A stretch of DNA of 64,000 bases, from NCBI GenBank assembly GCA_001657325.1, contig LWRO01000020.1, positions 1 to 64,000 on the forward strand, given 5' to 3'. A program made the translations under genes and the position numbers. Each line of letters opens with the position of its first letter. Within the stretch, counting starts at the first letter, position 1. The stretch comes from Geitlerinema sp. BBD 1991-9 (GTDB lineage: Bacteria; Cyanobacteriota; Cyanobacteriia; Cyanobacteriales; Geitlerinemataceae). Below are positions 3,638-56,411 of the stretch, piece after piece. The notes under the pieces are model-generated. The model saw nothing but the letters and a program-made list of their open reading frames with translations, was not told the DNA's origin and did no database searches.

Positions 3638-3754
3638 GAAGACACGGGTGCATCTCACTTTTGCAGTCGTAACCTCACCCCTCCTCCCCTGGCTAAGGGG
3701 AGGTGCCGAAGGTGGAGGGGTCATTCTACGAAATTGAGATGCACCCGAAGACAC
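3638..3754. mobile_element. 101-bp MITE-like element with 8-bp target duplication
   Basis: The element spans 3646-3746. Its ends are the perfect 12-bp inverted repeat GGGTGCATCTCA / TGAGATGCACCC. It is flanked on both sides by the direct repeat GAAGACAC (3638-3645 and 3747-3754), as expected for an 8-bp target-site duplication. The interior is C-rich, with an internal near-palindrome CCTCCCCTGGCTAAGGGGAG. It encodes no transposase, so it must be mobilised in trans. A second copy with its own, different 8-bp duplication is at 44739-44877. The parent insertion-sequence family is not identified. Confidence 0.85.
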
Positions 3755-4279
3755 AAGCTTGATTTCAATTATTTTATATGCCTGTCTTAAGTTTTTAGTG
3801 TGGTTTAACAGTTTTTAGGTGTCAGTATTATCGTATAAGAAAGACTGGTAGCTCTCAAGTCAAGAATTTGGGAACGTCATCAATTCTAATGATTGTCTTG
3901 GCTCTGATAAAACTTTTTATATTAAAATTGTTTTCGACGATCTTAAAATTTCCGAGAGAATAATACCATTTTTAAAAATTCATGCCATAGATGTCTGTAG
4001 GGGCGAACGGTGTTCGTCCAAGTTCAGCCGAAGATCTCTAGCAGGATTATCGAGAAATGGTATAAAAGCCGATCTTGAATATCAAAAAATGAGATCGAGC
4101 GTTTTTTCAATTCTCGAATGTTGAATACAGTTTTGCCCCTTCTCGAAGTTTTATTACAACCAGTTTGCCGCTTCTGAACTAGCTGTCGATCTCTATTCGG
4201 AATCGATCGATCTCAAAACTCGATCGATCGGACTGACCCGATCGATCGAGGGTACATCTGCAAGCAAGGTCGCACCGGG
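3755..4279. other. Gene-free spacer upstream of the 3' end of ubiD
   Basis: AT-rich spacer of about 525 bases. Apart from the inverted-repeat element at 3963-4063 nothing recognisable is seen: no open frame with protein character and no tRNA-like sequence. Confidence 0.6.
3963..4063. repeat. Inverted-repeat element with ATACCATTT ends and a nested GAACGG palindrome
   Basis: The ends ATACCATTT (3963-3971) and AAATGGTAT (4055-4063) are perfect 9-bp inverted repeats. Inside, at 3998-4019, is an imperfect copy (GTAGGGGCGAACGG then TGTTCGTCC) of the palindrome that is perfect at 27333-27360. The first 20 bases resemble 53565-53584, where the same end and a similar palindrome occur together. Non-coding; probably a MITE or REP-like element. 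Confidence 0.55.
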
Positions 4280-26926: not shown

Positions 26927-27452
26927 TGTTTCATCTATAAGCTACCTTTTGATCTGCAGATGTTTTTATCCTATTGTATAGCATTACAGCGTTCAATTTT
27001 TTTAAAATTGAATAATATCTTGAAAATATTCAAGCCAAGACATTGTCGAATTTTTTAGGCTGTGATAAGCTTTTTAAAAAAATCTATCTATATTGAAGCA
27101 AGAATTTTACAAAAAATATCAAAATCAAAAGATCTGGCACCCAAGCATAAGTACTTATGCCTTGAAATTAAACAGCTACAGCAACCTACAATGAATTTGG
27201 CAAGCAATAAAATTGTAAGGTCGCCATTCATTTATCTTCTCCATATAAAGTAAAGCAACCAGAAGAGAATTTTCAAGGGTCTTTTGAGTTTGAGGTGATA
27301 AGCTGATTTTATACCCGGTCAAAACCCTTGCTGTAGGGGCGAACGGCCGTTCGCCCCTACCCAAATCTTGTATTCAGTTCAACAAATTACACCGTAATCT
27401 CAGGAGACCCATTTTCAATTAAAGCTTTACAGAAATCTTGAACGTATGAAGC
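26927..27452. other. AT-rich intergenic region with a perfect palindrome
   Basis: About 525 bases separate the exporter from the radical SAM gene. A 63-codon plus-strand frame at 27062 has no protein character. The only structured item is the 28-bp palindrome at 27333. Confidence 0.6.
27333..27360. repeat. Perfect 28-bp palindromic repeat (GTAGGGGCGAACGG and its complement)
   Basis: The half-site GTAGGGGCGAACGG is followed immediately by its exact reverse complement. Related copies are at 3998-4019 (imperfect), 53590-53623 (degenerate) and 56092-56119 (inside an Rpn gene). No coding capacity; REP-like or remnant of a small mobile element. Confidence 0.85.
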
Positions 27453-44738: not shown

Positions 44739-44877
44739 GAAAATCAGGGTGTATCTCACTTTGGTTATCGGAACCCCACCCATCCTCCCCTTAGCCAGGG
44801 GAGGATGGGTGGGGTAGCGGGACGGAGTCCTTAGGCGGAGGGGTCATTCTACGAAATTGAGATGTACCCGAAAATCA
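44739..44877. mobile_element. 123-bp MITE-like element with 8-bp target duplication at a stop codon
   Basis: The element spans 44747-44869. Its ends GGGTGTATCTCA and, on the other strand, GGGTACATCTCA are relatives of the GGGTGCATCTCA ends at 3646-3746, and 20 bases near the right end (TCATTCTACGAAATTGAGAT) are identical to that copy. Both sides carry GAAAATCA (44739-44746 and 44870-44877), a different 8-bp duplication from the first copy. The right duplication contains the TGA stop codon (44875-44877) of the OmpA-type gene, so the insertion happened right at the 3' end of that gene without changing the protein. Interior: C-rich hairpin CCATCCTCCCC/GGGGAGGATGG. No transposase. Confidence 0.85.
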
Positions 44878-45786
44878 GGGTGTCACTTGAATTTCAATGC
44901 GTCGGTTGCGCTGGCGATTGGCAGGAGTATCGTTAGGCGCGACGAACTGGCTCGCACCGTAGCCGACACTCACCCAGTGATAGCCGTCGCTGTCGAGGGT
45001 ATCGTTAAGATGTTGGACGATTTGCTTGGCTCTGACGAACGTAATTTCGAGCTGCTCTGCTCGATCGTTTCCCTCGTCAGCATAGGCGGCTACGTAGATG
45101 CTCGAATTTGGGGAACTTTGCAATTCTTCTACCAATCGATCGAGGAGGTTCAAGCTTGTCGGATCGAGAACGGTGCCACGGTCGTCGGTAAACAGAACGT
45201 CACTCGGTAACGTCAAGTGTAACGGCGAACTCGATATCGACGCTGGTGTGTCTTGCAGCATTTCCCCGAACAATTGGCTTTCGAGTCGATCGAGTCGAGA
45301 TCGAACAGCAGAGAGCTGTTGTGACAGCGCTTGCTGTTGCTGTGTGCGTTCAGTCTCCGATAGATTTTCCGCCGTCGTGAGTTCGACTGTGCGCGTTTGG
45401 AGCGCAGCGAGATCGGCTTTCAGTTGGACGAATTCGGCTTGAAGTTCCTGACGTTGCTCGGGGGTCAACTCAGACATCGATGGCGCTTCAGGAGGCTTCT
45501 CAACGTCGCGACGAAATCTCTGCTCGGCTTGGCGAGTCAGCTCCACGCGCCACCGTTCGATTGCTGGCTGAGATGGGTTGACTTTTGGATAAAAAAGTGA
45601 TAGAGCGATTCCAGCTGCCGCTCCCAACCCCAAGCCAAAGAAGAGAACGATTAACCGAAACAGCATTGCGATCGTTGCGCTGCCCAAGTTTCCCTGACGT
45701 TCGGAATTGCGCTGACGGCGGCGACGAGTGCGGCGACTTTCCGTCGGCTTAGATCCTGAATTCGGTGTCGGCGGCGTTGAACTCAC
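44875..45786 (-). CDS. OmpA-family membrane protein with coiled coil
   Basis: 303 residues: Arg-rich cytoplasmic N-terminus (about 15-30), membrane helix about 40-65 (LFRLIVLFFGLGLGAAAGIAL), long coiled coil about 100-175, and a C-terminal OmpA-like peptidoglycan-binding domain about 205-303 (LNLLDRLVEELQSSPNSSIY, VAAYADEGNDRAEQLEI, VGYGASQFVAPNDTPANRQR, NRRIEIQV). It should anchor the envelope to peptidoglycan or act in a protein complex. Third gene in a minus-strand run with DUF3038 and DUF4335 genes. The stop codon lies inside the target duplication of the MITE at 44747. Confidence 0.9.
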   Translation of the reverse strand: MSSTPPTPNSGSKPTESRRTRRRRQRNSERQGNLGSATIAMLFRLIVLFFGLGLGAAAGIALSLFYPKVNPSQPAIERWRVELTRQAEQRFRRDVEKPPEAPSMSELTPEQRQELQAEFVQLKADLAALQTRTVELTTAENLSETERTQQQQALSQQLSAVRSRLDRLESQLFGEMLQDTPASISSSPLHLTLPSDVLFTDDRGTVLDPTSLNLLDRLVEELQSSPNSSIYVAAYADEGNDRAEQLEITFVRAKQIVQHLNDTLDSDGYHWVSVGYGASQFVAPNDTPANRQRNRRIEIQVTP

Positions 45787-55547: not shown

Positions 55548-56411
55548 ATGAAAACGGATAAGCTTTTTTACCGCATCTTCCTGTTGGAACCAAACTTGGT
55601 GGCGGAGTTAATTCCGGATCTACCCCCAGACTGCCGCTTTGATTATTTTGCCCCAGTTCTGAAGGAACGGGAACGCCGCTTGGATGGGGTATTAGTGCCG
55701 CTGGGGGATGACCCAAGTTTGCCATTGGTGTTTCTAGAAGCGCAGATGCAAACTGACCCTGGATTTTATCGCCGTTTTTTTGCTCAGGTGTTTCTCTATC
55801 TGGAACAGTATCAGGTGACGCGACCTTGGCGGGGTCTGTTGTTGTTTCCTCGCCGCACGTTGAATTTTGGGGAGGAAGACCCTTATCAAGGGGTGTTAGC
55901 GACTCAGGTGGAACGGTTTTATCTGGAGGATTTGATTCCGTTAGAGGAGTTGACGCCGAATTTGGCTCTGTTGCGATTGTTGGTGCTATCGGAGGAGGAA
56001 GCCCCGGAGAATGCTCGTCGTCTGTTGGCGCAAGGCGGGACGGAGCGGGAGTTTCGGCGGCGGCTGGATTTGGTCGAGAGTATCATGGTCTGTAGGGGCG
56101 AACGGCCGTTCGCCCTCCCTAATTTGAGCTTGGAGGCGATACGGGAGATGTTGGATATTACTCAGGTGCGCGTTCAGGATACGCAGTTTTATAAGGATGT
56201 GTTCGAGAAGGGACAGGAGCAAGGTTTGGAACGGGGAGAGTCTGAACTGTTGCTGCGTCTGTTGACTCGGCGCTGTGGGGAGTTGTCTGAGGAGCAGCGG
56301 CAACGGGTTAGGGACTTGTCGGCACCTCAGCGGGAAGCCCTGGCGGATGCACTGTTGGATTTTACGGGAATGGCAGATTTTCAGGTTTGGTTGCAGCAGC
56401 AGTCTGTGTGA
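55548..56411 (+). CDS. Rpn-type recombination-promoting nuclease / putative transposase (DUF2887-DUF4351)
   Basis: 287 residues, the only full-length copy here. The N-terminal PD-(D/E)XK nuclease part reads KTDKLFYRIFLLEPNLVAEL, CRFDYFAPVLKERERRLDGV and FLEAQMQ (catalytic Asp/Glu-x-Gln). The C-terminal DUF4351 is LLRLLTRRCGELSEEQRQRV to GMADFQVWL. At 56092-56119 a palindromic repeat (GTAGGGGCGAACGGCC type) has been inserted in frame, adding the residues CRGERPFALP between VESIMV and NLSLEAIREML where copy 1 has VSKFPELSLEKIREML. The family promotes DNA breaks and RecA-independent recombination in relatives. Probably still translated. Confidence 0.88.
   Translation: MKTDKLFYRIFLLEPNLVAELIPDLPPDCRFDYFAPVLKERERRLDGVLVPLGDDPSLPLVFLEAQMQTDPGFYRRFFAQVFLYLEQYQVTRPWRGLLLFPRRTLNFGEEDPYQGVLATQVERFYLEDLIPLEELTPNLALLRLLVLSEEEAPENARRLLAQGGTEREFRRRLDLVESIMVCRGERPFALPNLSLEAIREMLDITQVRVQDTQFYKDVFEKGQEQGLERGESELLLRLLTRRCGELSEEQRQRVRDLSAPQREALADALLDFTGMADFQVWLQQQSV
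56092..56119. repeat. Palindromic repeat inserted inside the Rpn coding frame
   Basis: GTAGGGGCGAACGG followed by CCGTTCGCCC and TCC; the central 20 bases (56096-56115) are a perfect palindrome and the outer ones nearly so. Related to the 28-bp palindrome at 27333. The insertion keeps the reading frame. Confidence 0.8.

Follow-up and report, generated by a model that had tools for sequence, protein, structure and literature searches.

Cyanobacterial MITEs with ISKra4/ISMich2-type ends and hairpin cores that also lie between other ends

Two short repeats in the window (the whole 64-kb stretch of DNA analysed) are best explained as non-autonomous MITEs that carry the ends of an ISMich2-type insertion sequence (IS) of the ISKra4 family and are moved by its transposase. 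We give this explanation a probability of roughly 0.9. The full-size element would make an ISKra4 transposase, a Mutator-like DDE enzyme. The enzyme would bind ends of roughly 20 bp and move the short DNA lying between them, and the insertion would leave target duplications of 8 bp or, less often, 9 bp. From the sequences we infer that this transposase acts in trans on the MITEs. The MITE family itself is ordinary in kind; the less expected part is a mosaic of cores and ends.

MITEs in the window and their copies

The elements of the window are as follows.
3638-3645, no strand: left target duplication of MITE 1, GAAGACAC, 8 bp
3646-3746, plus strand: MITE 1, 101 bp, ISKra4/ISMich2-type ends, core A
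3646-3657, plus strand: left terminal inverted repeat of MITE 1, GGGTGCATCTCA, 12 bp
3673-3722 (approximate limits, from folding), plus strand: core A of MITE 1, a GC-rich hairpin
3735-3746, minus strand: right terminal inverted repeat of MITE 1, reverse complement of GGGTGCATCTCA
3747-3754, no strand: right target duplication of MITE 1, GAAGACAC, 8 bp
44739-44746, no strand: left target duplication of MITE 2, GAAAATCA
44747-44869, plus strand: MITE 2, 123 bp, of the family of MITE 1, with a longer core
44870-44877, no strand: right target duplication of MITE 2, GAAAATCA, in which the minus-strand frame 44875-45786 has its stop codon
1733-1866, plus strand: MITE 3, 134 bp, decayed ends GGCGGCATCTCA / GGGTACATCTCA, core B

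MITE 1 is as the preliminary description had it, a 101-bp unit whose 12-bp inverted ends match perfectly and whose 8-bp duplication of GAAGACAC is exact. MITE 2 was said to have the same ends, and it nearly does: GGGTGTATCTCA starts at 44747 and TGAGATGTACCC stops at 44869, but each has one mismatch to the 12-mer. Its own, different duplication is present on both sides (GAAAATCA), but the direct repeat is actually 14 bp (GAAAATCAGGGTGT) and not 8 bp. It extends six bases past the duplication because the target beside it happens to read GGGTGT; at this point of insertion the minus-strand frame 44875-45786 closes with ACACCC TGA. MITE 1 and MITE 2 form one family and have far more in common than the approximately 20 bases first noticed, including a GGAGGGGTCATTCTACGAAATTGAGATG half. 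MITE 3 had been missed when two copies were counted in the window. It is an older copy with a different core from MITE 1, and its 9-bp flanks (GACGAACGC / AACGAACGC) differ by one mismatch. At 101 and 123 bp, without coding capacity and with 12-bp terminal inverted repeats, MITE 1 and MITE 2 fit the definition of a MITE.

The genome holding the window (5.98 Mb, 113 contigs) contains 202 exact copies of the 12-bp end, compared to 0 of the reversed pattern, and 43 matches to the 101-bp unit. Our own sample, taken from the first 100 of the 202 places, consisted of 123 partly overlapping sequences around ends (416,221 bases, window included) and gave 100 distinct end pairs, each of at most 200 bp. 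Exact duplications were found at 57 of these pairs (8 bp at 47 and 9 bp at 10), and duplications with at most one mismatch at 80; the other 20 had no good duplication. Among 9,900 mismatched control pairs, the frequency was 0.0007 (0.07%) for an exact duplication of 8 or 9 bp and 0.0020 (0.20%) with at most one mismatch allowed. The grounds for doubt named beforehand, copies lacking duplications or units belonging to a longer gene, failed to appear: most copies have a duplication, and neither MITE 1 nor MITE 2 lies inside a long reading frame.

A nested copy was also found. It occupies L029 1501-1631 within a core-B MITE and has GACGAATT on both sides. The host MITE without this insert aligns across the junction with uninterrupted copies, for example with that in L036. 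A 229-bp element (L153) had been considered an uninterrupted counterpart to the 369-bp nested pair of L029, a reading that was rejected, as the cores differ and the host is a core-B MITE. The idea that core A exists here as a repeat of its own was likewise rejected for most places. Outside the paired elements there are 39 further core-A places (33 stretches), with at least one ISKra4-type end nearby (at most two mismatches) at 36 and none at 3, while control positions 400 bp away had such an end at 0 of 39. Tandem duplications were seen at three loci, each on the reverse strand of its locus. Those at L296 ~2050-2280 and L268 ~550-760 comprise a MITE plus part of its flank, and that at L270 ~550-770 comprises a MITE core.

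The exact pattern is present in 5 of 119 genomes (own included) and in at least 102 stretches of named genomes, among them Okeania, Hormoscilla, Baaleninema, Microcoleus, Spirulina and others. Nearly all named genomes with these elements are cyanobacteria. An independent set of 103 elements from named genomes, among the matches listed, had an exact 8-bp duplication in 65, an exact 9-bp duplication in 9, and a duplication with at most one mismatch in 89; the cores of these 103 listed elements fall into 11 groups. Exact ends also occur on two single contigs filed under Deinococcales and Flexibacter (L078, L101), which may reflect transfer, mis-binning or look-alikes.

Full-size elements with like ends

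Which element moves the MITEs? The parent is apparently an ISMich2-type insertion sequence of the ISKra4 family and not an ISL3-like one. ISL3 had been offered as an example of a compatible family, a suggestion now set aside, as the elements found with these ends encode ISKra4-family transposases. Ends common to MITEs and full-size elements were found on a broken element of the same genome (L009) and on elements of relatives (L245, L240, L241 and L236).

A search of this genome with the NCBIfam ISKra4 model (cut-off 205 bits) gave four matches, all below the cut-off, and an intact transposase with these ends was not found. The best match (165.6 bits, five stops) is a 1188-bp element at L009 1238-2425 with ends GGGTGCATCTCA / GGGTACATCTCA, one of which has one mismatch, and with no target duplication. 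The full-size element that the preliminary description proposed to look for was found in this genome in a broken form, but not in an intact one. In a blastn search of our own stretches the 1188-bp element returned its own broken copies alone and none of the MITEs, so the 101-bp family is not visibly its inner deletion. Two of the four ISKra4 matches (L010, L012) stop at the edge of a contig, and the assembly may therefore have lost an intact copy.

ISKra4 matches were present in 57 of 119 genomes (own and relatives), 23 of them above the cut-off. The element in L245 is intact and 1227 bp long, with exact 12-bp ends and an 8-bp duplication, and has 12 equal-score places in its genome. Likewise, L240 and L241 hold intact 1232-bp elements with exact 12-bp ends and an 8-bp duplication, and L236 an intact 1223-bp element with exact 12-bp ends and a 9-bp duplication. 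The element in L231 has GGGTGCATCCCA ends and a 9-bp duplication, and its genome also has the 101-bp MITE. The remaining fetched ISKra4 elements had different ends, or none that were recognised. In ISfinder, the ISMich2 type of ISKra4 is characterized by GGGT ends and an 8-bp duplication. L240, L241 and L245 have both; L236 and L231 have 9 bp. Frame B of L245 scores 235.9 bits against the ISKra4 cut-off of 205. The L245 frames, 1349-1558 and one ending at 2409, overlap with a -1 offset and have a T7 run between them, where a frameshift is predicted. Such a pair of overlapping frames, with a -1 shift close to seven consecutive T, is described for the ISMich2 group (PMC3942029).

In G005, a related genome where the intact IS is present in 12 like copies, no MITE fitting the pattern was found. 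Members of 122 bp at L150 1498-1619 and L184 1020-1141, together with seven in Baaleninema, have a TACTT/AAGTA palindrome. This palindrome resembles the subterminal one of full-size ISKra4 elements, and the 122-bp members may be inner-deletion derivatives.

A transposase of another family, such as ISL3, could instead move the MITEs, the likeness to ISKra4 ends being a coincidence. Duplications of 8 bp and GGG ends are known in other IS families too, and this genome yielded no intact ISKra4 element bounded by the ends in question. However, relatives hold at least four intact ISKra4 elements whose ends match all 12 bp and which are flanked by 8- or 9-bp duplications; the broken ISKra4 element of the same genome has such ends as well, apart from a single mismatch in one of them. 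We therefore consider another family very improbable. The earlier proposal of trans-mobilised MITEs appears to hold, given the copy number, the duplications, the nested insertion and the full-size element with like ends and a broken transposase gene.

The 42 copies of 101 bp have a mean pairwise identity of 0.90, and nearest neighbours are 1 to 11 bases apart. Target duplications differ at 5.2% per site (74 elements). Since an intact mobiliser was not found in this genome and the copies are only ~90% alike, the family seems to be largely dormant here. The two nearest pairs of 101-bp copies differ by a single base, so some movement may be recent. Even less credible, by a little, than a transposase of another family is the idea that the repeats are mainly regulatory or terminator-like folds, which spread long ago and are now kept for the hairpin and not for mobility: MITE 1 and MITE 2 fold strongly as whole elements (z-score -6.5 each against shuffles), the copies are old and many have decayed ends (both ends, at up to three mismatches, at 26 of the 39 core-A places outside pairs), but MITE 3 folds no better than shuffles (z -0.5), and spread by transposition is required anyway.

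Hairpin cores between different ends

ISKra4-type ends enclose several unrelated hairpin cores. By tag, the 100 pairs of our own sample comprise 79 with core A, 9 with B, 3 with D, 2 with F, 1 with E and 6 others (one of them B-like). Core A is present in 4 and core D in 10 of 244 genomes of the phylum (own included in each), compared to 0 for either reversed control. At core-A places in other genomes, ATACCAAATCTC ends were found at 5 of 17 and none of the tested ends at 12 of 17.

An automatic search for inverted ends plus a duplication around core D found few, and end types were then taken from the sequences and counted. Among 30 fetched core-D places, GGGTGCATCTCA ends were found at 3 (all in the own genome), GGGTGCATCCCA at 2, AGACCTCTTGCA at 9, TACCATTTTTCA at 2 and AACTGTAGTTCT at 2, and none of these five tested types at 12; the ISKra4-type end was predefined, and the counts for the other types are not independent of their definition. 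At control positions within these loci, the end types were found at 0 of 30. Target duplications were established here for ISKra4-type ends only, not for the other end types around cores. In an alignment of 12 representatives, core D is nearly identical and the ends are unrelated. The two TACCATTTTTCA copies retain the first hairpin only, and the AGACCTCTTGCA ends have TA at their flanks. By eye, no duplication directly hugs the core in this alignment, which leaves a plain nested insertion unsupported. IS630-type (DDE_3) parents of the AGACCTCTTGCA ends were looked for and not found, with 0 such end pairs at IS distance in 30 fetched loci of G215, G172 and G251.

One possibility, to which we would give somewhat less than an even chance, is that the hairpin cores of cyanobacterial MITEs are modules that circulate between genomes and are repeatedly wrapped by unrelated transposon ends. 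In that case, swapping of the ends around a travelling core, through template switching at hairpins or duplication-free REP-like insertion, would give rise to new MITE families alongside the inner deletion of IS elements. A literature search with the letters of ends and cores found no report of these repeats; Kaneko 2007 and Elhai 2008 lay outside that search, and an earlier description is possible. On MITEs with shared cores, the literature search gave nothing in point among the matches listed.

Other palindromes lie nearby. A 99-bp repeat at 3964-4062, ~210 bp from MITE 1, has TACCATTTTT ends, TA at its borders and a GTAG-headed hairpin; its second copy is at L178 715-813. A GTAG-headed palindrome, GTAGGGGCGAACGGCCGTTCGCCCCTAC, occupies ~90 places in the genome; with at most two mismatches allowed, it matched 93 times in forward and 89 times in reverse orientation. 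In the window it is found at 27333-27360, where it is free of the ends tested, and at 56092. Several of its copies have a longer surrounding repeat in common. Related GTAG motifs occur within MITEs, at 3997 in the 3964-4062 element and at 1833 in core B of MITE 3.

Known systems and meaning

The cyanobacterial MITE Nezha is said to be short, numerous and strong in secondary structure, as are the present MITEs. Small dispersed repeats of 21-27 nt, reportedly described in Nostoc minitransposons by Elhai et al. in 2008, are far shorter than cores A and D. The present elements share their end sequence and 8-bp duplication with the ISMich2 group of ISKra4 (p-MULT 4), and their 1.2-kb full-size relatives have the two frames and -1 shift given for that group (PMC3942029). 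Unlike an IS of that group, the window units lack a gene, and no likeness of their inner parts to the full-size element was detected.

In Anabaena sp. 90, type II MITEs of 77-541 bp are present in 147 complete or partial copies, and the authors of that survey found no IS with like ends (PMC3542288). The present MITEs are likewise short, numerous and strongly structured, but here the IS family was identified. In Anabaena variabilis, GTAG-15 REP dimers lie inside long palindromes (PMC3733652). The GTAG-headed palindromes in core B and in the core of the 3964-4062 element are comparable, being cyanobacterial palindromic repeats enclosed in another palindromic element. The difference from GTAG-15 is that one core is found here between several different inverted ends across genomes.

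A numerous cyanobacterial MITE family is tied here to a likely mobiliser family, where the Anabaena sp. 90 survey (PMC3542288) had no matching IS. The cores common to different ends offer a testable case for the origin of MITE families that have no inner likeness to an IS.
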